Source of the DNA: an uncultured Vicinamibacterales bacterium
GTDB taxonomy: Bacteria > Acidobacteriota > Vicinamibacteria > Vicinamibacterales > UBA8438
DNA: 64,000 nt
Direction: 5' to 3'
NCBI GenBank assembly: GCA_958295905.1
Contig: OY282382.1
Span: forward strand, 1,326,001-1,390,000
Each line of letters opens with the position of its first letter. The stretch's first letter is position 1. Made by a program: the position numbers and the translations under genes. The notes beneath the pieces were generated by a model. The model did not search any database. It had not been told where the DNA came from and was given only the letters and a program-made list of their open reading frames with translations. This document shows positions 49,209-61,093 of the stretch, one piece after another.

Positions 49209-50327
49209 CTACTGCACGCGGAGCTCGCGGTCGAGCCTGACCACCGCGCCGCCGAGGCCGCCGGTGGGGCGGCGGGTGTAGCGCATGTCCGCGATCGAGA
49301 CGTGGTACCCGTCGGTGGTCTCCTCGACCGCGTAGGCGGGGAACCGCTTCCAGGCCGCGAAGCCCCGGACGTGGGGGGCGGTCAGCGCCGCCGCGGTGAT
49401 CGGCCCCTCGGGGCCGCGCGGCGCGGGGGCGGCCACTTGGCGCAGGGGAGGGCCGGTCAGCCAGTCGAGCGCGTAGAAGCGGTAGCGCTCGGGGCCGGCG
49501 ACGACGATGTTGCGGCGGAACGGGTTGCCGGGCACGGGAATCGCCAGCACCTCGCCCGGCGCCGCGCCCTCCTGCTGCGCGAGCAGCGCCGACACCTGCG
49601 CCTCGGCCGCCCGCGACGCCGCCGCCATGCCCCCGGCGTAGAGCGCCACCCCGGCCAGGCACGCGGCCGCGATTTGCGGGTGCCGGCCGCGTCCTGCGCC
49701 CGTCGCCCGCGCCCACGCGATGGCTGCGAGGCCCGCCCCCCACAGCCACGCGGTGGCCGGCGGCGTGTCCGCGAACCGGCCGAACCCGATGACCAGCCCC
49801 GTCACCGCGGTCGCCGTCCCCCCCAGCAGCAGCCACGCGGCCGCGCCTGCCCGCGACGCCGAGTGGGCCAGCACCACCGTCAGGCCGCCCAGCAACCACA
49901 CCCACGGGTCGATGATGAACAGCGCGTCGCCGTAGAACCACGTGTCGTCGAACGGCATCAGGAACCGTACGCCGTAGGTGTTCAGCCAGTCGAGGGCGGG
50001 GTGGCTGAGTACCGCCACCGAAGTCAGCCGCAGCAGCGGTCCCGCCCGCGCCGTCGGCGCCCGCCCGCGCCGCCGCGCCACCACCCGGTCGAGCAGCAGC
50101 AGGACCGCCGTCAGCACCAGCGGCAGCACCACCATTGCCAGCACCCCGTGCGTCCACCCGCGCCGGAACCCCAGCGACAGGTCGCGGCTGATGAACATGG
50201 TGACGGCGTCGATGTCGGGGGCGTTGGCCGCGAGCACCCCGGCCGGGGCGGCCAGCGCCGCCGTCCCGTTCCGCAGGCGCGTCTCGGCGAGGGTGGCGCC
50301 GACGAGGGTGTGGGCGAGGGGGTCCAT
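49209..50327 (-). CDS. YdjM/YbcI-type membrane-bound metal-dependent hydrolase (DUF457-like)
   Basis: 372 residues. The start MDPLAHTLVGATLAE and the later ANAPDIDAV, RRGWTHGVLAMV and LSHPALDWLNTYGVRFLMPF are the His/Asp motifs of this integral membrane family, annotated as metal-dependent hydrolases. About six hydrophobic segments come first; the C-terminal ~110 residues are soluble (FRRNIVVAGPERYRFYALDW). Substrate unknown. It lies just downstream of the nine-copy array on the same strand (13 bp after the last copy), so read-through from the array is possible. Confidence 0.85.
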   Translation of the reverse strand: MDPLAHTLVGATLAETRLRNGTAALAAPAGVLAANAPDIDAVTMFISRDLSLGFRRGWTHGVLAMVVLPLVLTAVLLLLDRVVARRRGRAPTARAGPLLRLTSVAVLSHPALDWLNTYGVRFLMPFDDTWFYGDALFIIDPWVWLLGGLTVVLAHSASRAGAAAWLLLGGTATAVTGLVIGFGRFADTPPATAWLWGAGLAAIAWARATGAGRGRHPQIAAACLAGVALYAGGMAAASRAAEAQVSALLAQQEGAAPGEVLAIPVPGNPFRRNIVVAGPERYRFYALDWLTGPPLRQVAAPAPRGPEGPITAAALTAPHVRGFAAWKRFPAYAVEETTDGYHVSIADMRYTRRPTGGLGGAVVRLDRELRVQ

Positions 50328-50339
50328 GGCGCGGGGCGG

Positions 50340-50936
50340 TTACCCGGCGGCGGGGGCGTGGCCGGGCACGTCGGTCTTCGCCCGCTCGCCGAGCAGATGG
50401 CGGTACAGGTCGTCGAACCGGCCGTTGAGGCCGTCGAAGCGCTGGTGGAGGGCCGCCGCGTCGGCGCGGGTCCGCTCGTCGAGCCTTGCGATGCTACCGC
50501 AGATGGCGGCGTGGGCGGCCTCGTTCTGCCTCTCCGCCGTCTCGAACCGTCTGTCCATCGCCTCGAAGCGCTCCGTCCACCGTGCGTCCATCGCCTCCAG
50601 GCGTTCGCGGCTTGCTTTTTCCGCCATGTCGAAGCGTTCGCGGCTTGCTCTTTCCGCCATCTCGAAGCGTTCGCGGCTTGCCTTTTCCGCCATGTCGAAG
50701 CGCTCCGTCCACCGCTTGTCGACCGCCTCGAACTGCTTGTCGACCGCCTCGAACCGCTTGTCGACCGCCTCGAACTGCTTGTCGACCGCTTCGAACCGCT
50801 TGTCGATGTGCCGCTCCATCGTGTCGAACCGGTTTCCCTGCGCCCTCCACAGGGCTGCGAACAGCGCGACCCCCGTTCCGATGGCCGTCAGCCCCGTCCC
50901 GATCACTGCCAGTATCGTCGCATCCATCATCGTCAT
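50340..50936 (-). CDS. Membrane-anchored coiled-coil protein A1 (nine-copy array)
   Basis: Last gene (by transcription) of nine tandem paralogs of unknown function. 198 residues: an N-terminal membrane helix (ILAVIGTGLTAIGTGVALFA), GNRFDTMERHIDKRFEA, heptads of the form VDKQFEA, hendecads of the form MAEKASRERFE, then MDARWTERFEAMDRRFE and the constant end QNEAAHAAICGSIARLDERT ... FDDLYRHLLGERAKT. A1 has four VDK heptads and three hendecads. The start is MTMMDAT rather than MTTMDAT; GAAGGG touches the first ATG, so the second or third Met may be used. Predicted single-pass membrane protein with a long soluble coiled coil. Confidence 0.8.
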   Translation of the reverse strand: MTMMDATILAVIGTGLTAIGTGVALFAALWRAQGNRFDTMERHIDKRFEAVDKQFEAVDKRFEAVDKQFEAVDKRWTERFDMAEKASRERFEMAERASRERFDMAEKASRERLEAMDARWTERFEAMDRRFETAERQNEAAHAAICGSIARLDERTRADAAALHQRFDGLNGRFDDLYRHLLGERAKTDVPGHAPAAG

Positions 50937-51097
50937 CCCTTCAAGCCGGTCCCCGTGCCCGCCGGCGCCGCCCGCCGGCGGGCAACGCGGATGACGCAAC
51001 CCGCGTGCCAACGGGACCCTGCCGGCTGCCCGGCGGCGGGGGCGTGGCCTCGACGGGCGGCGCTGTCGCGCACGGCCGAGAAACGGGACCCCGCCGG

Positions 51098-51640
51098 CTA
51101 CCCGGCGGCGGGGGCGTGGCCGGGCACGCCGGTCTTCGCCCGCTCGCCGAGCAGATGGCGGTACAGGTCGTCGAACCGGCCGTTGAGGCCGTCGAAGCGC
51201 TGGTGCAGGGCCGCCGCGTCGGCGCGGGTCCGCTCGTCGAGCCTTGCGATGCTCCCGCAGATGGCGGCGTGGGCCGCCTCGTTCTGCCTCTCCGCCGTCT
51301 CGAACCGTCTGTCCATCGCCTCGAAGCGGTCCGTCCACCGTGCGTCCATCGCCTCCAAGCGTTCGCGGCTTGCCTTTTCCGCCATCTCGAAGCGTTCGCG
51401 GCTTGCCTTTTCCGCCATCTCGAAGCGCTCCGTCCACCGCTTGTCGACCGCCTCGAACTGCTTGTCGACCGCCTCGAACTGCTTGTCGACCGCCTCGAAC
51501 CGCTTGTCGATGTGCCGCTCCATCGTGTCGAACCGGTTTCCCTGCACCTTCCACAGGGCCGCGAACAGCGCGACCCCCGTTCCCATGGCCGTCAGCCCCG
51601 TCCCGATCACCGTCAGTATCGTCGCATCCATCGTCGTCAT
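51098..51640 (-). CDS. Membrane-anchored coiled-coil protein A2
   Basis: 180 residues with three VDK heptads (QFEA, QFEA, RWTE) and two hendecads. The loss of one heptad and one hendecad relative to A1 accounts exactly for the 18-residue difference. The helix has M for I (GTGLTAMGTG). The ~155 bp gap to A1 contains a second, truncated echo of the gene end (CCGGCTGCCCGGCGGCGGGG). The upstream hairpin is weakened here. Confidence 0.8.
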   Translation of the reverse strand: MTTMDATILTVIGTGLTAMGTGVALFAALWKVQGNRFDTMERHIDKRFEAVDKQFEAVDKQFEAVDKRWTERFEMAEKASRERFEMAEKASRERLEAMDARWTDRFEAMDRRFETAERQNEAAHAAICGSIARLDERTRADAAALHQRFDGLNGRFDDLYRHLLGERAKTGVPGHAPAAG

Positions 51641-51796
51641 CCCTTCGAGCCGGTCCCCCCGTGCCCGCCGGCACCGCTCGCCGGGCAACGCGGATGACGC
51701 AACCCGCGTGCCAACGGGACCCTGCCGGCTGCCCGGCGGCGGCGCGCCTCGACGGGCGGCGCTGTCGCGCACGGCCGAGAAACGGGACCCCGCCGG

Positions 51797-52318
51797 CTAC
51801 CCGGCGGCGGGGGCGTGGCCGGGCACGTCGGTCTTCGCCCGCTCGCCGAGCAGATGGCGGTACAGGTCGTCGAACCGGCCGTTGAGGCCGTCGAAGCGTT
51901 GGTGCAGGGCCGCCGCGTCGGCGCGGGTCCGCTCGTCGAGCCTTGCGATGCTCCCGCAGATGGCGGCGTGGGCCGCCTCGTTCTGCCTCTCCGCCGTCTC
52001 GAACCGTCTGTCCATCGCCTCGAAGCGGTCCGTCCACCGTGCGTCCATCGCCTCCAAGCGTTCGCGGCTTGCCTTTTCTGCCATCTCGAAGCGTTCGCGG
52101 CTTGCCTTTTCCGCCATCTCGAAGCGCTCCGTCCACCGCTTGTCGACCGCCTCGAACTGCTTGTCGACCGCCTCGAACCGCTTGTCGATGTGCCGCTCCA
52201 TCGTGTCGAAGCGGTTTCCCTGCGCTCTCCACAGGGCCGCGAACAGCGCGATCCCCGTTCCGATGGCCGTCAGCCCCGTCCCGATCACCGTCAGTATCGT
52301 CGCATCCATCGTCGTCAT
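51797..52318 (-). CDS. Membrane-anchored coiled-coil protein A3
   Basis: 173 residues, one heptad shorter than A2 (two VDK heptads, two hendecads) and otherwise nearly the same. The juxtamembrane segment is RAQGNRF instead of KVQGNRF. The upstream spacer carries an internal duplication of the GGTCCCCCGTGCCCG stretch. Confidence 0.8.
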   Translation of the reverse strand: MTTMDATILTVIGTGLTAIGTGIALFAALWRAQGNRFDTMERHIDKRFEAVDKQFEAVDKRWTERFEMAEKASRERFEMAEKASRERLEAMDARWTDRFEAMDRRFETAERQNEAAHAAICGSIARLDERTRADAAALHQRFDGLNGRFDDLYRHLLGERAKTDVPGHAPAAG

Positions 52319-52507
52319 CCCTTCGAGCCGGTCCCCCGTGCCCGCCGGCGCCGCCGGTCCCCCGTGCCCCGCCCGGCACCGCCCGCCGGCGGGCAACGCG
52401 GATGAACGCAACCCGCGTGCCAACGGGACCCTGCCGGCTGCCCGGCGGCGGGGCGGCGCCTCGACGGCGGCGCTGTCGCGCACGGCCGAGAAACGGGACC
52501 CCGCCGG

Positions 52508-53125
52508 CTACCCGGCGGCGGGGGCGTGGCCGGGTACGTCGGTCTTCGCCCGCTCGCCGAGCAGATGGCGGTACAGGTCGTCGAACCGGCCGTTGAGGCC
52601 GTCGAAGCGTTGGTGCAGGGCCACCGCGTCGGCGCGGGTCCGCTCGTCGAGTCTTGCGATGCTCCCGCAGATGGCGGCGTGGGCCGCCTCGTTCTGCCTC
52701 TCCGCCGTCTCGAACCGTCTGTCCATCGCCTCGAAGCGCTCCGTCCACCGTGCGTCCATCGCCTCCAGGCGTTCGCGGTTTGCTCTTTCCGCCATGTCGA
52801 AGCGTTCTCGGTTCGCGTTTTCCGCTATTTCGAAGCGTTCGCGGCTTGCCTTTTCCGCCATCTCGAAGCGCTCCGTCCACCGCTTGTCGACCGCCTCGAA
52901 CTGCTTGTCGACCGCTTCGAACCGCTTGTCGACCGCCTCGAACCGCTTGTCGACCGCCTCGAACTGCTTGTCGACCGCCTCGAACCGCTTGTCGATGTGC
53001 CGCTCCATCGTGTCGAAGCGGTTTCCCTGCGCTCTCCACAGGGCCGCGAACAGCGCGATCCCCGTTCCGATGGCCGTCAGCCCCGTCCCGATCACCGTCA
53101 GTATCGTCGCATCCATCGTCGTCAT
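52508..53125 (-). CDS. Membrane-anchored coiled-coil protein A4
   Basis: 205 residues: five VDK heptads and three hendecads. Two hendecads are of a second type (IAENANRERFD, MAERANRERLE), showing that different repeat types are shuffled between copies. Compared with A3 it has 21 residues of extra heptads and 11 of extra hendecad, exactly the length difference. Confidence 0.8.
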   Translation of the reverse strand: MTTMDATILTVIGTGLTAIGTGIALFAALWRAQGNRFDTMERHIDKRFEAVDKQFEAVDKRFEAVDKRFEAVDKQFEAVDKRWTERFEMAEKASRERFEIAENANRERFDMAERANRERLEAMDARWTERFEAMDRRFETAERQNEAAHAAICGSIARLDERTRADAVALHQRFDGLNGRFDDLYRHLLGERAKTDVPGHAPAAG

Positions 53126-53387
53126 CCCTTCGAGCCGGTCCCCCGTGCCCGCCGGCGTCGCCGGTCCCCGTGCCCCCGCCCGGCGCCGCTCGCCGGTGGG
53201 CAACGAGGATGAACGCAACCCGCGTGCCAACGGGACCGTGCCGGCTGCCCGGCGGCGGGGGCGGCGCTTCGACCTCGTCGGTGTGCAGGCCATCCCTGCG
53301 TTCGAGGGGCTGCCGGCTGCCCGGCGGCGGGGGCGCGCCTCGACGGGCGGCGCTGTCGCGCACGGCCGAGAAACGGGACCCCGCCGG

Positions 53388-53976
53388 CTGCCCGGCGGCG
53401 GGGGCGTGGCCGGGCACGCCGGTCTTCGCCCGCTCGCCGAGCAGATGGCGGTACAGGTCGTCGAACCGGCCGTTGAGGCCGTCGAAGCGCTGGTGGAGGG
53501 CCGCCGCGTCGGCGCGGGTCCGCTCGTCGAGCCTTGCGATGCTCCCGCAGATGGCGGCGTGGGCGGCCTCGTTCTGCCTCTCCGCCGTCTCGAAGCGTTC
53601 CTCACACCGTTTCGAAGCGTTCCGCCCACCGCCGGTCCATCGCCTCGAAGCGTCTGTCGATCGTCTCGAACCGCTCGGTCCACCGTGCGTCCATCGCCTC
53701 CAGGCGTTCGCGGTTCGCGTTTTCGGCCATGTCGAAGCGTTCCACCCACCGCCGGTCCATCGTCTCGAAGCGTTCGCGGTTCAGCTTCTCCGCCGTGTCG
53801 AAGCGTTCGCGGTTCAGCTTCTCCGCCATGTCGAAGCGTTCGCGGTTCAGCTTCTCCGCCGTGTCGAAGCGTTTGTCCACCGCGTCGAAGCGGTTTCCCT
53901 GCGCCCTCCACAGCGCTACGAACAGCGCGATCCCCGTCCCGATCACCGTCAGTATCGTCGCATCCATCGTCGTCAT
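53388..53976 (-). pseudogene. Coiled-coil array copy A5, frameshifted and stop lost
   Basis: Starts normally (MTTMDATILTVIGTG) with a shorter helix and a different coiled coil: AVDKRFDTAEKLNRERFD, three LNRERF units and ETMDRRWVERFD. An extra base near 53610 (CCTCACACCG against CCTCCACCG in A9) shifts the frame and ends the protein at 53602, before the constant C-terminal domain. In the original frame the terminal TAG has become CAG at 53388-53390. A truncated 125-residue product is possible. Confidence 0.75.
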
Positions 53977-53991
53977 CCCTTCGAGCCGGTC

Positions 53992-54032
53992 CCCCGTTGC
54001 CCGCCGGCGCCGCTCGCCGGCGGGCAACGGGG
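53992..54032 (-). promoter_or_regulatory. Hairpin upstream of array copy A5
   Basis: CCCCGTTGCCCGCCGGC pairs perfectly with GCCGGCGGGCAACGGGG around a CGCCGCTC loop, just before the ribosome-site region. Compared with A9 both arms carry one extra base (GTTG with CAAC), a matched change that keeps pairing. Confidence 0.65.
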
Positions 54033-54140
54033 ATGAACGCAACCCGCGTGCCAACGGGACCCTGCCGGCTGCCCGGCGGCGGGGGCGCGCCTCGACGGGC
54101 GGCGCTGTCGCGCACGGCCGAGAAACGGGACCCCGCCGGG

Positions 54141-54725
54141 CTACCCGGCGGCGGGGGCTTGGTCGGGCATGCCGGTCTTCGCCCGTTCGCCGAGCAGATG
54201 GCGGTACAAGTCGTCGAACCGGCCGTTGAGGCCGTCGAAGCGCTGGTGGAGGGCCGCCGCGTCGGCGCGGGTCCGCTCGTCGAGCCTTGCGATGCTCCCG
54301 CAGATGGCGGCGTGGGCGGCCTCGTTCTGCCTCTCCGCCGTCTCGAACCGTCTGTCCATCGCCTCGAACCGCTCCGTCCACCGTGCGTCCATCGCCTCCA
54401 GGCGTTCGCGGCTTGCTCTTTCCGCCATGTCGAAGCGTTCGCGGCTTGCCTTTTCCGCCATCTCGAAGCGCTCCGTCCACCGCTTGTCGACCGCCTCGAA
54501 CTGCTTGTCGACCGCCTCGAACTGCTTGTCGACCGCCTCGAACTGCTTGTCGACCGCCTCGAACTGCTTGTCGACCGCCTCGAACCGCTTGTCGATGTGC
54601 CGCTCCATCGTGTCGAAGCGGTTTCCCTGCACCTTCCACAGGGCCGCGAACAGCGCGACCCCCGTTCCGATGGCCGTCAGCCCCGTCCCGATCACTGCCA
54701 GTATCGTCGCATCCATCGTCGTCAT
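54141..54725 (-). CDS. Membrane-anchored coiled-coil protein A6
   Basis: 194 residues. It has the purest heptad run: four identical VDKQFEA units plus VDKRWTE, and two hendecads. Length equals A2 plus two heptads. The end reads GMPDQAPAAG instead of GVPGHAPAAG. The hairpin upstream (54742-54781) is close to perfect, with one unpaired C in the arm. Confidence 0.8.
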   Translation of the reverse strand: MTTMDATILAVIGTGLTAIGTGVALFAALWKVQGNRFDTMERHIDKRFEAVDKQFEAVDKQFEAVDKQFEAVDKQFEAVDKRWTERFEMAEKASRERFDMAERASRERLEAMDARWTERFEAMDRRFETAERQNEAAHAAICGSIARLDERTRADAAALHQRFDGLNGRFDDLYRHLLGERAKTGMPDQAPAAG

Positions 54726-54741
54726 CCCTTCGAGCCGGTCC

Positions 54742-54781
54742 CCCCGTGCCCGCCCGGCGCCGCTCGCCGGCGGGCACGGGG
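54742..54781 (-). promoter_or_regulatory. Hairpin upstream of array copy A6
   Basis: CCCCGTGCCCGCC pairs with GGCGGGCACGGGG. Same position relative to the start codon as in A5 and A9. Confidence 0.6.
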
Positions 54782-54894
54782 ATGAACGCAACCCGCGTGC
54801 CAACGGGACCCTGCCGGCTGCCCGGCGGCGGCGGCGGCGGCGCGCCTCGACGGCGGCGCTGTCGCGCACGGCCGAGAAACGGGACCCCGCCGGG

Positions 54895-55395
54895 CTACCC
54901 GGCGGCGGGGGCGTGGCCGGGCATGCCGGTCTTCGCCCGCTCGCCGAGCAGATGGCGGTACAGGTCGTCGAACCGGCCGTTGAGGCCGTCGAAGCGCTGG
55001 TGGAGGGCCGCCGCGTCGGCGCGGGTCCGCTCGTCGAGCCTTGCGATGCTCCCGCAGATGGCGGCGTGGGCGGCCTCGTTCTGCCTCTCCGCCGTCTCGA
55101 ACCGTCTGTCCATCGCTTCGAAGCGCTCCGTCCACCGTGCGTCCATCGCCTCCAGGCGTTCGCGGCTTGCCTTTTCCGCCATCTCGAAGCGTTCGCGGTT
55201 CGCGTTTTCCGCCATGTCGAAGCGTTCCACCCACCGCCGGTCCATCGCCTCGAAGCGTTCGCGGTTCAGCCTTTCCGCCAGGTCGAACCGGTTTCCCTGC
55301 ACCTTCCACAGGGCCGCGAACAGCGCGATCCCCGTTCCGATGGCCGTCAGCCCCGTCCCGATCACCGTCAGTATCGTCGCATCCATCGTCGTCAT
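54895..55395 (-). CDS. Membrane-anchored coiled-coil protein A7
   Basis: The shortest intact member, 166 residues. It lacks the TMERHIDKRFEA segment and all VDK heptads; after GNRFD comes LAERLNRERFEA, MDRRWVERFDMAENANRERF and one MAEKASRERLE unit before MDARWTERFEA. It is built partly from the repeat types found in A5 and A9. Confidence 0.8.
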   Translation of the reverse strand: MTTMDATILTVIGTGLTAIGTGIALFAALWKVQGNRFDLAERLNRERFEAMDRRWVERFDMAENANRERFEMAEKASRERLEAMDARWTERFEAMDRRFETAERQNEAAHAAICGSIARLDERTRADAAALHQRFDGLNGRFDDLYRHLLGERAKTGMPGHAPAAG

Positions 55396-55582
55396 CCCTT
55401 CGAGCCGGTCCCCCGTGCCCGCCGGCGCCGCCGGTTCCCGTGCCCCGCCCGGCGCCGCTCGCCGGCGGGCAACGGGGATGAACGCAACCCGCGTGCCAAC
55501 GGGACCCTGCCGGCTGCCCGGCGGCGGCGGCGCGCCTCGACGGCGGCGCTGTCGCGCACGGCCGAGAAACGGACCCTGCCGG

Positions 55583-56149
55583 CTACCCGGCGGCGGGGGC
55601 GTGGCCGGGCATGCCGGTCTTCGCCCGCTCGCCGAGCAGATGGCGGTACAGGTCGTCGAACCGGCCGTTGAGGCCGTCGAAGCGCTGGTGGAGGGCCGCC
55701 GCGTCGGCGCGGGTCCGCTCGTCGAGCCTTGCGATGCTCCCGCAGATGGCGGCGTGGGCCGCCTCGTTCTGCCTCTCCGCCGTCTCGAACCGTCTGTCCA
55801 TCGCCTCGAACCGCTCCGTCCACCGTGCGTCCATCGCCTCGAAGCGTTCGCGGCTTGCCTTTTCCGCCATGTCGAAGCGTTCGCGGCTTGCCTTTTCCGC
55901 CATGTCGAAGCGTTCGCGGTTTGCTCTTTCCGCTATCTCGAAGCGTTCGCGGCTTGCCTTTTCCGCCATGTCGAAGCGCTCCGTCCACCGCTTGTCGACC
56001 GCCTCGAACTGCTTGTCGACCGCCTCGAACCGCTTGTCGATGTGCCGCTCCATCGTGTCGAAGCGGTTTCCCTGCACCTTCCACAGCGCTACGAACAGCG
56101 CGACCCCCGTTCCGACCACTGTCAATGCCGTTGCATCCATCGTCGTCAT
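55583..56149 (-). CDS. Membrane-anchored coiled-coil protein A8
   Basis: 188 residues with two VDK heptads and four hendecads (KASRERFE, RANRERFD, KASRERFD, KASRERFE). The membrane helix is seven residues shorter (LTVVGTGVALFVAL; one IGTGLTA unit missing). Relative to A3, plus two hendecads minus that unit gives exactly 188. The spacer upstream is reduced and the hairpin has one mismatch. Confidence 0.8.
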   Translation of the reverse strand: MTTMDATALTVVGTGVALFVALWKVQGNRFDTMERHIDKRFEAVDKQFEAVDKRWTERFDMAEKASRERFEIAERANRERFDMAEKASRERFDMAEKASRERFEAMDARWTERFEAMDRRFETAERQNEAAHAAICGSIARLDERTRADAAALHQRFDGLNGRFDDLYRHLLGERAKTGMPGHAPAAG

Positions 56150-56272
56150 CCCTTCGAGCCGGTCCCCGTTGCCCGCCCGGCGCCGCTCGGCGGCGGACAA
56201 CGCGGATGAACGCAACCCGCGTGCCAACGGGACTCTGCCGGTGCGCACGGCCGAGAAACGGGACCCTGCCGG

Positions 56273-56980
56273 CTACCCGGCGGCGGGGGCGTGGCCGGGC
56301 ACGTCGGTCTTCGCCCGCTCGCCGAGCAGATGGCGGTACAGGTCGTCGAACCGGCCGTTGAGGCCGTCGAAGCGCTGGTGGAGGGCCGCCGCGTCGGCGC
56401 GGGTCCGCTCGTCGAGCCTTGCGATGCTCTTGCAGATGGCCGCGTGGGCCGCCTCGTTCTGCCGTTCCGCCGTCTCGAAGCGTTCCTCCACCGTTTCGAA
56501 GCGTTCCGCCCACCGCCGGTCCACCGCCTCGAACCGCCTGTCGATCGTCTCGAACCGCTCCGTCCACCGTGCGTCCATCGCCTCCAGGCGTTCGCGGTTC
56601 GCTCTTTCCGCCAGGTCGAGGCGTTCTCGGTTCGCGTTTTCCGCCACATCGAAGCGTTCCACCCACCGCCGGTCCATCGCCTCGAAGCGTTCTCGGTTCG
56701 CGTTTTCGGCCATGTCGAAGCGTTCTCGGTTCGCGTTTTCCGCCACATCGAAGCGTTCCACCCACCGTCGGTCCATCGCCTCGAAGCGTTCGCGGTTCAG
56801 CTTTTCCGCCAGGTCGAAGCGTTCGCGGTTCAGCTTCTCCGCCAGGTCGAAGCGTTTGTCCACCGCGTCGAACCGGTTTCCCTGCACCTTCCACAGGGCC
56901 GCGAACAGCGCGACCCCCGTTCCGATGGCCGTCAGCCCCGTCCCGATCACCGTCAGTATCGTCGCATCCATCGTCGTCAT
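56273..56980 (-). CDS. Membrane-anchored coiled-coil protein A9
   Basis: First gene of the array by transcription and its longest, 235 residues. It has no TMERHIDKRFEA segment. The coiled coil mixes DLAEKLNRERF units, AMDRRWVERFDVAENANRER (present twice), LAERANRERLE, then ETIDRRFEAVDRRWAERFET and VEERFETAERQNEAAH. One K replaces G in the constant part (AICKSIARL). The A5 pseudogene shares this repeat vocabulary, so A5, A7 and A9 form one sub-type and A1-A4, A6 and A8 another. Confidence 0.8.
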   Translation of the reverse strand: MTTMDATILTVIGTGLTAIGTGVALFAALWKVQGNRFDAVDKRFDLAEKLNRERFDLAEKLNRERFEAMDRRWVERFDVAENANRERFDMAENANRERFEAMDRRWVERFDVAENANRERLDLAERANRERLEAMDARWTERFETIDRRFEAVDRRWAERFETVEERFETAERQNEAAHAAICKSIARLDERTRADAAALHQRFDGLNGRFDDLYRHLLGERAKTDVPGHAPAAG

Positions 56981-56996
56981 CCCTTCGAGCCGGTCC

Positions 56997-57035
56997 CCCC
57001 GTGCCCGCCGGCGCCGCTCGCCGGCGGGCACGGGG
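56997..57035 (-). promoter_or_regulatory. Hairpin upstream of array copy A9
   Basis: CCCCGTGCCCGCCGGC pairs perfectly with GCCGGCGGGCACGGGG, 16 bp before the A9 start region. No convincing -10 box was found between here and 57220. Confidence 0.65.
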
Positions 57036-57061
57036 ATGAACGCAACCCGCGTGCCAACGGG

Positions 57062-57170
57062 ACCCCTGCCGGCTGCCCGGCGGCGGGGGCGGCGCCTCGA
57101 CGGCGGCGCTGTCGCGCACGGCCGAGAAACGGGACCCGCCGGCTGCCCGGCGGCGGGGGCGTGGCCGGGC
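57062..57170 (-). repeat. Spacer and gene-end debris beyond array copy A9
   Basis: CCGGCTGCCCGGCGGCGGGG and GCGCACGGCCGAGAAACGGG recur here as in every spacer, and 57143-57170 repeats the last codons (GHAPAAG) of an array gene. It looks like the remains of a tenth copy. Confidence 0.6.
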
Positions 57171-57414: not shown

Positions 57415-58006
57415 GCGTCGCCCCCCGGCCGCCCGACCCGTCCGCGGGCCGTCCCGCCGCGGTTTTTCGTCCGCGAGCCCGGCCCCCGGGCAAAATCGGC
57501 GCGCCGCCGCATTTCCGGCTTGCGCCGGTTCGTTCGGGCGTGTTACTCTCTCGCGCCGGCCGAGTTTCGGCGTCCCCGGCCGGTGCCACGCGTCGTCTGG
57601 TCCGGTTCGTCCGGCCGCGGGCGGCTGTTTTTTGGGTTGCGCCGGCTGGTAGCGCATGTTACGATTGCGCGTTTTCCGACGCTTGATTGGCGGGGGGGGC
57701 TAAAGACCTGATGCGGATCGGACGATAGGGTGGTTGACACGGGGGGCCGGGGGCGGACAGATCCGATTCCCCCGTTGCCACGCGAACAGGCGGCGTACCG
57801 TCGCACGCTGTTGACCTAAAAGCCTTTAGGGTGCCCTTAAGGGGGGTTGTGACCCAGTTCGTTGACAATTTGCCCATGGGGCGCAGGGAGGCGCAGGGTA
57901 CATGCGGATCGAGATGAAACGTGGACGTAGGGGGGGCGGACTGAGCCGGCTTTCCCCCGGGTGCATGCGGCACGAGGGACAACACTCACAAGGGGGAGAT
58001 TGCGAC
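57415..58006 (+). other. Long upstream region of the VPALP repeat-protein gene
   Basis: About 590 bp without a supported gene. TTGACA occurs at 57733 and again near 57863, either of which could be a -35 box, though no clear -10 follows at 17 bp. CCTAAAAGCCTTTAGG near 57818 is a near-palindrome. An in-frame ATG at 57902 exists, but the strong ribosome site and signal peptide favour 58007. Confidence 0.4.
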
Positions 58007-61000
58007 ATGAGAATGGGAGCGGTTTTCGCAAGAGGCAGTTGCCGGGCGCTGAAGTGGATGGCGCTGTTCGGCGTGGTGTTCGCGCTGGGGGTCGGTTCGG
58101 CCATGGCGCAGGCGCCGACGGTATCGGTGACGTTGGGAACCACGACGCCTGCGGAGTTGGGCGCATTGGTGCCGGTGACGGTGAGGGTCACTCCGAATCC
58201 CTCGGCCACGACCACGACCCGATACGGCCTCACGGCCACTCTGACCTTGGGCGCGGGTACGGTGGACTCAGCAACGGCTACCGACCCTGACGACACACCC
58301 GGCGAGCTCGCCCAAGCCGACGCCGACGTGGCTTGGGTTAACGCGTCCGGAACGATATTGTCAGCCCGAGGCACCCCGGCCCTTCCTGCTCAAATGTTTT
58401 CCTGGACAGGCAGGACAGCCACCGCTGAAGAGAGCACAAAAGTCTTCTACCTGAGGACGTACGGAGATGACGATGCGGAAAACGAGAAGCTCCAAATTAC
58501 CACTGTCATCTCCGCCGCGGTAGCCTACACTGGCACCGTAACCCCTGTCCCGGTCAAGACTTTCACGGTTCAGGACAACAGAGAGCAGGGCTACAGGCTG
58601 AGGCATGTCATTAGCAACCAGATCAAGGAAGGGGACAGTCCGACCCTTGAGCTCTCAGCGATACCGGGGAAGACTGTTTTCACAGATCTCACAGTGGAGC
58701 TGACGTCGGTCAATGACTCTTCGGATTACTCCATCGCCGACGCCGCCAGCACCGTAACCCAAAGTCGCAGCCAAGTGTTCAGAGTGCCGGTGAAAGATGA
58801 TGACGACGGCCGCTCGGTAGTTGAGGTGTTTTTCAATTCGATCTCGCCCGATCGTGACAGGCAAGATGACACCGTTACCTTGAGCGTAACCAGAACTACG
58901 CCCGCCGCGTTGCGGGGGCGCGAGGTCACGAGCTTGGATCTGGAGGTGGTCGACCAGCATAAGCTTCCCTCGGTGGAGATCGATGGCATCACGATCAAGG
59001 TCGGCAACAAGGACACGACCGTAGCCACCCTGGTGGAAGGCCAAACGGGGACGCTGACGCTCGTGGCGGACCGTGGCACGACGACCGACGATGTGCCCAA
59101 TGACGAGGAAATCAAGGTCACCCTGACGCGCCATGACAGCAGCTCGGCCGTCGCTCAGGACTACAACCTTGACGGCTCGCCGGTGACCATCAAAGCGAGC
59201 GAAACGACCGGCACGTTTACGCTGGAGGTACATGAGGACCAGGACATCGCACAGGACGGCGAGAAGCTGGTGTTGACCGCTTCGGTGGCGGGCGAGAAGA
59301 AGAATGGCGAAGAGACCAGGGAAGTGACGCTTGGTGCCATCACCTTCGTAGACGCCACGATCAAGAAGATCGAGCCGCGGTCGGACGAAGTGGTCGACGC
59401 GGCTGTCGCGGCTGCGAGAACCGCCGGCGACAAGGACAAGAACGGTCTGTGGACCCCGTCCGAGACGCTGACGCTCACGGCAGCGGCCCTGTTTGATTGG
59501 CCGTCTGACACCACGGGGGTCGTTCTCGGGAACATCCAGATCACAGACACGGAGATCGTGAGCGCCACCACCACCAACGACAACTTGGTGGTCGAAGCGA
59601 AGGCAGCCGGCACGGCCAAGGTCACCGTCACCGCGACGGTGACTCGGGAGGCCTCATCCGGCGTCCCGCAGACCGTTTCGAACGTCGCCCAAGTCGCGTT
59701 CGATGTGAAGGTCGACGCGCCGGCGATCGTTGCGAAGCCGGATGCGGAGGTGACGGCGTCGGTAGCCGCAGCCATCAAGAAGGCGGCGGACATGGCCTCG
59801 AGCCGGCAGTGGGAGCCCGGCGGCGCGACCGCCATGGTTCCTCTCAGCGAGCTGTTCGACGTGCCCGAGTCCATCAGAGCGATCTACGATGTGGAGTCCT
59901 CTGACCCGGGCGATGTCACCGCGGTCATCTCCGACGACAAGATGAACGTCAACCTCATGCCGAAATCCACGGGGACAGCGAAGATTACGGTCACCGCGGT
60001 CGACCTCGGCGGAGGCAGCACCAGTGTCAGCTTCGACGCCACCGTCATGGCTCAGGCCGCGGTGGTCGGGAAGTCGCAGGCCGAGGTGGACGCCGTCTTC
60101 ATGACGGCCGGCGCCGACAAGCTGGAGGCTGGCGGGCCCGACGTGATGGTCCCGATGAACGAGCTGTTCACGATCTCCCCGGGCGCGGAGCCCACGTACT
60201 CGGTCGACTCGGACATGCCGGCGGTCGTCAGGGCGAGTGGCAGCGGGACGATGGCGGCTCTCACCCCGCTGGGTACGGGAACCGCGATGATCATGGTGAC
60301 CGCAGTTGACAGCGCCAGTCGCAGCATCGCCAACGTCACCTACAGAGCCATGGTCGATAGGATGGCCCTTACGATCACGGTCGAGACTGACCCTGTGGAC
60401 ATGGTCGAGGAGGGCAGCACGATCAAGGTCACCGCGACCGCCAACCGGGCTGTCCAGGCCGGCGAGGAGGCCGTAGTGATGCTGACCGTCACCGGTCCCG
60501 CCCAGGGCCCCGACACGATCTCGATCTCTGCCGGGGGGACGATGGGCGAGGCCTCGGTGACCGTGGAGAACGACAACGTTGTCGACCCCAAGAACGATGT
60601 CGTGATCACCGCCGGCGGAACGGCCATCGACGGTGGCGCCAAGACGTTCGTTTTCAAAGTGACCGAAGACGACATGGCGAGCACGTTCACGCTCTCCGGC
60701 CCCGAAGACATGAACCTCGTCGAGGGCAGGGAGTACACGCTGACGGTGACTGCCGCGCCTGCGGTGTTGATAGACACCGAGGTGATGATCATGCGGGATC
60801 GCTCTAAGAGCGACGCCGACGAGGATGACTATGAGGTCAGCGGCATCATGCTCACCGCTGGTGAAGCGACGGGCACGACGACGTTGGTGATCAAGGAGGA
60901 CAACACCCCCGACGCTGGGCATGGGATGCCTGAGATGCTGGTGCTTTACGGGATGGTCGACAACGCGCAGACCGAGAACTCGTTGAGCTTCTACACTTGG

Positions 61001-61093
61001 GACATGTCCGTACCGGCCCTGCCGGTCATCGCTCAGCTTCTGCTGGCGGCCTTCCTGGGCGTCGGCGGCTACCGCCGGTATCGGCGGCGGTAG
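58007..61093 (+). CDS. Large secreted repeat protein with VPALP-type C-terminal anchor
   Basis: 1028 residues. AGGGGGAG lies 8 bases before the ATG. The signal peptide ends at SAMAQ. The body is beta-rich with Calx-beta/Ig-like patterns (TVTLSVTRTTPAALRG, EVTLGAITFVDATIKKIEP) and at least two related ~100-residue units carrying MVPLSELFDVPES and MVPMNELFTISPG. The end is a sorting-type signal: VPALPVIAQLLLAAFLGVGG followed by YRRYRRR. That layout (short Pro motif, helix, Arg cluster) recalls PEP-CTERM and IPTL-CTERM anchors. It is visibly less GC-rich than its neighbours. It is probably a surface or adhesion protein; ligand unknown. Confidence 0.82.
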   Translation: MRMGAVFARGSCRALKWMALFGVVFALGVGSAMAQAPTVSVTLGTTTPAELGALVPVTVRVTPNPSATTTTRYGLTATLTLGAGTVDSATATDPDDTPGELAQADADVAWVNASGTILSARGTPALPAQMFSWTGRTATAEESTKVFYLRTYGDDDAENEKLQITTVISAAVAYTGTVTPVPVKTFTVQDNREQGYRLRHVISNQIKEGDSPTLELSAIPGKTVFTDLTVELTSVNDSSDYSIADAASTVTQSRSQVFRVPVKDDDDGRSVVEVFFNSISPDRDRQDDTVTLSVTRTTPAALRGREVTSLDLEVVDQHKLPSVEIDGITIKVGNKDTTVATLVEGQTGTLTLVADRGTTTDDVPNDEEIKVTLTRHDSSSAVAQDYNLDGSPVTIKASETTGTFTLEVHEDQDIAQDGEKLVLTASVAGEKKNGEETREVTLGAITFVDATIKKIEPRSDEVVDAAVAAARTAGDKDKNGLWTPSETLTLTAAALFDWPSDTTGVVLGNIQITDTEIVSATTTNDNLVVEAKAAGTAKVTVTATVTREASSGVPQTVSNVAQVAFDVKVDAPAIVAKPDAEVTASVAAAIKKAADMASSRQWEPGGATAMVPLSELFDVPESIRAIYDVESSDPGDVTAVISDDKMNVNLMPKSTGTAKITVTAVDLGGGSTSVSFDATVMAQAAVVGKSQAEVDAVFMTAGADKLEAGGPDVMVPMNELFTISPGAEPTYSVDSDMPAVVRASGSGTMAALTPLGTGTAMIMVTAVDSASRSIANVTYRAMVDRMALTITVETDPVDMVEEGSTIKVTATANRAVQAGEEAVVMLTVTGPAQGPDTISISAGGTMGEASVTVENDNVVDPKNDVVITAGGTAIDGGAKTFVFKVTEDDMASTFTLSGPEDMNLVEGREYTLTVTAAPAVLIDTEVMIMRDRSKSDADEDDYEVSGIMLTAGEATGTTTLVIKEDNTPDAGHGMPEMLVLYGMVDNAQTENSLSFYTWDMSVPALPVIAQLLLAAFLGVGGYRRYRRR

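Follow-up and report, generated by a model that had tools for sequence, protein, structure and literature searches.

Several described protein families vary by the number of short in-frame repeats. The Bdr proteins of Borrelia are multi-copy paralogues of this kind; the repeat number of bdrT varies between strains (about 9 versus 6), and the function of Bdr is unknown (PMC3303823). The chicken BG proteins form a multigene family in which constant parts are joined to a cytoplasmic heptad coiled coil encoded by a variable number of 21-nt exons, and copy number is also variable (PMC5938342). Whole-unit changes are tolerated by coiled coils, whereas other changes are harmful, as in Smc arms and other proteins (PMC5344682). 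A different kind of likeness is offered by PspB, which consists of a transmembrane anchor followed by a cytoplasmic helix (PMC11237479); the psp operon, which deals with envelope stress, is driven by sigma-54 and PspF (PMC3068692).

Here we describe a tandem array of membrane coiled-coil genes in a 64,000-nucleotide stretch of the genome of an uncultured Vicinamibacterales bacterium (the window). Like the Bdr and BG families, the array comprises paralogues with a variable number of in-frame repeats. However, the bdr genes lie on plasmids and prophages, BG is eukaryotic and exon-based, with an extracellular Ig domain and heptads only, and neither family has a tandem arrangement with sigma-54 elements. 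Bdr and BG are thus partial precedents, and the statement of a first-pass annotation of this DNA that no described system has this form was too strong. We consider that the array probably arose when an RpoN-controlled gene, encoding a coiled-coil rod anchored in the inner membrane, underwent lineage-specific tandem amplification; the product is perhaps a PspB-like envelope scaffold.

Overall organization of the array

Open reading frame and sequence analysis places nine co-directional gene copies on the minus strand at positions 50340–56980, eight of them intact and one (A5) frameshifted, in agreement with the first-pass annotation (Table 1). Counted from the first ATG, the intact reading frames encode 235 (A9), 188 (A8), 166 (A7), 194 (A6), 205 (A4), 173 (A3), 180 (A2) and 198 (A1) amino acids. 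The third ATG (MDATIL...) is probably the true start, which would make each protein 3 residues shorter, because the orthologues described below lack the first ATG and the spacing of the Shine–Dalgarno-like AAGGG/GAGGG suits the third; in both orthologues GAGGG is kept ahead of the third ATG. The repeat unit of the array consists of a gene and a spacer of about 130–270 bp. The spacers between copies (132, 196, 178, 173, 272, 198, 165 and 170 bp) differ by arbitrary amounts, so the whole-unit rule described below is true of the coil and not of the region at large.

Table 1 Features of the array and its immediate surroundings (positions in the window)
Feature	Position	Strand	Details
Tenth-copy remnant (3' end of a former copy), then spacer	57146..57170	-	25 bp, upstream of A9
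Sigma-54 element TGGCACGCGGGTTGC of A9	57042..57056	-	Consensus match
A9 leader with strong hairpin	56972..57041	-	z -4.6
A9, intact membrane coiled-coil gene	56273..56971	-	232 aa from third ATG; first ATG at 56980
Sigma-54 element of A8	56212..56226	-	Consensus match
A8, intact	55583..56140	-	185 aa; membrane helix with 21-bp deletion; four simple hendecads
Sigma-54 element of A7	55484..55498	-	Consensus match
A7, intact, shortest copy	54895..55386	-	163 aa
Sigma-54 element of A6	54788..54802	-	Consensus match
A6, intact	54141..54716	-	191 aa
Sigma-54 element of A5	54039..54053	-	Consensus match
A5, broken copy	53389..53967	-	Frameshift of one base, with premature stop near 53602; usual stop codon missing as well
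Sigma-54 element of A4	53215..53229	-	Consensus match
A4, intact	52508..53116	-	202 aa
Sigma-54 element of A3	52408..52422	-	Consensus match
A3, intact	51797..52309	-	170 aa
Sigma-54 element of A2	51699..51713	-	Consensus match
A2, intact	51098..51631	-	177 aa
Sigma-54 element of A1	50996..51010	-	Consensus match
A1, intact, last copy	50340..50927	-	195 aa; YdjM gene begins 12 bp after
YdjM-family inner-membrane protein gene	49209..50327	-	Next downstream of array, same direction; its orthologue identifies this locus in a congener

Because the copy number of arrays is hard to assemble, an artefact of long-read assembly has to be considered. However, the array sits within a contig of 6.13 Mb, and its copies differ by many SNPs, by varied spacer indels and in coil composition, which makes a simple artefact very unlikely.

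Searches of Pfam, NCBIfam and PDB with the array proteins returned only sub-threshold coiled-coil matches. A phage or plasmid origin was rejected: no phage match was found, and three weak plasmid matches covered the coil only. The best plasmid match by E-value is a Borrelia plasmid protein with FEAVDKQ-type heptads and a C-terminal hydrophobic segment, which may be a Bdr protein. Its similarity to the array is limited to the low-complexity coil, and its membrane segment is C-terminal whereas that of the array proteins is N-terminal. A spacer motif was also rejected as a dispersed REP-like repeat, since 18 of its 19 genomic matches are confined to the array.

Architecture and topology of the array proteins

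Each array protein is composed of a single N-terminal membrane helix (approximately residues 5–27 after the true start), a coil and a constant C-terminal part of 61 residues. The coil is built from units of 7 or 11 residues only (82 of 82 units in the eight intact copies), the 7+4 blocks being hendecads, and the core position is hydrophobic in every one of these units; the last coil unit of each protein, at the junction, has 8 residues. In an AlphaFold2 model of A3, residues 3–153 of 170 form a single continuous helix (pLDDT 85). The first-pass annotation had described the products as coiled-coil membrane proteins that differ in length by whole units, and both this description and the lengths and arithmetic that it gave hold for every pair it quoted.

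The membrane helix is followed, but not preceded, by positively charged residues. By the positive-inside rule, applied to charge only, the N terminus is therefore probably outside and the coil probably cytoplasmic. This topology bears on a further proposal of the first-pass annotation, that of an antigenic repertoire. Tandem, recombining, length-variable paralogues with mosaic sites do recall some antigen families, but a coil on the cytoplasmic side, as the charge pattern indicates, would be out of place in one. Inspection revealed no evident cleavable signal peptide or lipobox in the array proteins; the copies have constant ends and show no hypervariable residues. Every copy has its own predicted promoter element, ribosome-binding site and start, so that none has the look of a silent cassette. 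We regard a surface antigenic repertoire or phase-variable family as highly improbable.

Repeat units, exchange and length diversity

At the DNA level the coil units form tandem repeats of 21 and 33 bp that are nearly exact (91–98% matches in many rows). Slippage or unequal exchange in such repeats would yield steps of 7 and 11 residues automatically. The copies are mosaic: by the four-gamete test, 44 of 91 informative site pairs are incompatible, with 22 of 45 incompatible between the two gene ends. This pattern suggests that sequence has been exchanged among the copies; some of the incompatibility could also be due to recurrent mutation.

The first-pass annotation suggested that the array is kept as a set of different lengths. 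In such a set, the rods would act as a molecular ruler or as a partner-choice code in which copies pair with themselves or with set partners. In keeping with this, no two of the eight intact copies have the same length, their ends are constant while the coil varies, the register is kept in every unit, and the C-terminal domain is under purifying selection (see below). However, six copies are comparable in that they share one coil plan, and when their heptad and hendecad numbers were drawn at random from the observed ones, all lengths differed in 15% of trials (P about 0.15). The lengths are thus no more diverse than random unit combination would make them, and provide no evidence for a code. 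Moreover, one copy suffices in the congeners, and the units are nearly identical between copies and so give no sign of separate pairing codes. A maintained set of rod lengths is unlikely. Length stepping belongs to the gene class as a whole and not to this array in particular, since single-copy orthologues and dispersed relatives also vary by whole units; its cause is in-frame minisatellite units.

Sigma-54 elements and leaders

Each of the nine copies is preceded, 82–113 nt before its start, by a perfect −24/−12 sigma-54 element, TGGCACGCGGGTTGC. The pattern TGGCAC-N5-TTGC, with GG and GC at −24/−12, is matched without mismatch in all nine copies and in both orthologues. The window holds 9 perfect matches against 0.11 expected. 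In the whole genome (6.3 Mb) there are 15, of which 9 lie within the array; the six outside it compare with 8 for the reversed control, and the pattern is thus not enriched elsewhere in the genome. Because the nine elements are copies of one ancestral site, the independent evidence comes from the orthologues, both of which have a perfect TGGCACGCAGATTGCT 67–68 nt upstream of the start, within DNA that has otherwise diverged. RpoN is encoded in all three congeneric genomes (G000, G001 and G002), with its PF04552 DNA-binding domain scoring over the cut-off (E about 1e-63). The best reading is that the array copies are controlled by RpoN, their predicted promoters being consensus matches.

The leader between the sigma-54 element and the ribosome-binding site contains a hairpin that is strong in four of the six copies tested (z −3.0 to −5.4, with −5.4 in A5, −3.6 in A1 and −3.0 in A6; A9 in Table 1) and weak in A8 and A2. 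In the orthologues the corresponding z values are −2.6 and −2.1. We make no claim of covariation: both arms change in A5 and A8, neither in A6 and A9, and one arm only in the other five.

Orthologues and dispersed relatives

Two congeneric genomes contain one orthologue each (162 and 173 amino acids; 63–65% identical to A1). The first-pass annotation had named a single invariant copy in related genomes as one observation that would count against it. The orthologues are indeed single, but they are not invariant, as the two differ by exactly one hendecad (11 residues). They sit at another locus, beside an ankyrin gene and not YdjM; the window's genome has the adjoining MTDVPPP gene at 995 kb, with no array-type gene nearby. 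The array's slot, which lies between YdjM and a Big-type surface protein, is occupied in one congener by a single, different gene for a membrane coiled-coil protein (L065, 721–1104). At the cut-offs used, no other full-length relative was found among 162 genomes of the order, where one genome, G012, matched weakly in the coil (E 2.8e-13), or in a sample of 396 genomes of the phylum; the single match in GTDB contigs came from a methanogen MAG and was confined to the coil.

The genus also contains many dispersed genes with the plan TPALLVALFAWLR ... LRERMARLEGALEGF, that is, an N-terminal anchor (such as TPWLTPALLVALFAWLR), a variable coil of heptads and hendecads, and a constant C-terminus with the near-constant end LRERMARLEGALEGFLAGRRDRDAA. 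The lengths read in the genus are 65, 69, 76, 90, 93, 115 and 127 amino acids, with 112 in a sister genus. In the three congeneric genomes, a profile built from these genes matched 23, 18 and 13 stretches, and elsewhere in the family the number reached 20; some genes are counted twice in these figures. Whole-unit steps recur at other loci: two tandem genes at L034 encode 101 and 108 amino acids and are one heptad apart, and three sister species have orthologues of another gene that encode 123, 123 and 137, a difference of two heptads. The dispersed genes share the plan of the array, whereas their end sequences differ and they are mostly single; none of those checked has a sigma-54 element, except for a one-mismatch site at L033. 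The first-pass annotation mentioned neither the sigma-54 element of each copy nor this wider class.

Selection on the copies

Among the copies, pN/pS is 0.09 over the opening 47 codons of the C-terminal domain, where 8 of the 11 changes are synonymous (P 0.0009, or 0.008 if one third are synonymous by chance), although gene conversion between copies can distort apparent selection. The N-terminal and membrane part is little constrained (pN/pS 0.78). Purifying selection in the C-terminal domain implies that the copies are functional now or were until recently. This weighs against a selfish or neutral repeat array in decay, with which the broken copy, the narrow phylogenetic range and the ready amplification of repeat-rich DNA would agree; eight of the nine frames are intact, and promoter elements are kept in all nine copies and in the orthologues. 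We hold such decay to be distinctly unlikely.

Dosage amplification with neutral length drift, in which copy number alone matters, is possible, if doubtful. The near-identical ends of the copies, the predicted promoter element of each, the exactness of the DNA repeats and the tolerance of a broken copy are all consistent with it. By contrast, dosage alone leaves the constant ends and varied coils of the dispersed class unexplained, though drift could account for them.

Discussion

Under the reading that we favour, an RpoN-controlled rod gene belonging to a large class that encodes small bacterial proteins, each with a membrane anchor at its N terminus and a long coiled coil, underwent lineage-specific amplification to nine copies and a remnant. 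The N terminus of each protein would lie outside and the coil would form a cytoplasmic rod that oligomerizes in register. Expression would begin only once sigma-54 RNA polymerase is activated by an enhancer-binding protein. The coil would behave as a coding minisatellite whose units are 21 and 33 bp long. Both the number of copies and the length of the rod would change through slippage and through unequal exchange among copies, and changes that break the frame or the coiled-coil register would be removed by selection. The array would mainly serve dosage and secondarily permit mixed oligomers.

As to role, we tentatively suggest, by analogy and with considerable doubt, an inducible inner-membrane scaffold or spacer that works like the sigma-54-controlled PspB. 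PspB is likewise a small inner-membrane protein with an N-terminal anchor, a cytoplasmic helix and sigma-54 control, but it has no repeats and is not arrayed, and nothing links the array to PspA. No PspB profile (PF06667) appeared among the Pfam matches of the array or class members, which makes PspB an analogy and not a matter of membership, and neither PspA nor PspC was seen among the window genes scanned with Pfam. It is improbable that the array is a bacterial length code made out of a coding minisatellite, in which RpoN-switched tandem inner-membrane rods, their lengths kept different by selection, would set membrane spacing or sort partners.

The sigma-54 element, present on every copy and also on the genes of the single-copy relatives, is a new finding of this analysis. 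In the literature that we located, three features were not found together: a coding minisatellite in which reading frame and coiled-coil register are both kept, tandem amplification with exchange, and a sigma-54 element for each copy that single-copy relatives have conserved. Because it provides one membrane rod in eight natural lengths, the array is useful for asking if coiled-coil length is important in vivo. More broadly, these observations draw attention to membrane coiled-coil genes that form a large and unnamed class in this bacterial family, some of whose genomes have about 20 stretches that match it.

Coiled-coil genes elsewhere and features adjoining the array

The genome that carries the array also holds a tandem pair of membrane coiled-coil genes elsewhere (locus L034), whose products, of 101 and 108 residues, differ in length by exactly one heptad. 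At L032, two differing membrane coiled-coil genes overlap by stop and start. The long membrane coiled-coil protein of L033 mixes 7- and 11-residue units, and a sigma-54 element with one mismatch lies 127 nt upstream of its gene. One of the six perfect genome-wide matches to the sigma-54 consensus outside the array lies immediately 5′ of the L106 gene, which encodes another repetitive coiled-coil protein. In G012, a genome of the same order, a relative is built of hendecads only (RFERAEQRSDD repeats); its repetitive coil is interrupted by a run of N, which may be an assembly gap.

The leader of A9 and matching leaders of other copies can form a strong hairpin that begins close to the predicted sigma-54 transcription start. 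The large protein next to the array, probably a surface protein, ends C-terminally in PALPVIAQLLLAAFLGVGGYRRYRRR; relatives sharing this end adjoin other membrane coiled-coil genes at L034 and L065 (the array's slot in a congener).

Coordinates of the features described
Feature	Location	Position
Membrane coiled-coil pair	L034, G000:C1 about 1439 kb	1651-1956 and 2203-2529
Overlapping membrane coiled-coil genes	L032, G000:C1 about 5847 kb	1858-2244 and 2244-2591
Long coiled-coil protein	L033, G000:C1 about 1122 kb	1297-1872
Coiled-coil protein with LATKEELRQEVAR repeats	L106	G000:C1:2064300-2067500
Hendecad-only relative	L039, G012:C201	2918 onwards
Leader hairpin	window	56972-57041
Large protein, probable surface protein	window	57902-61093
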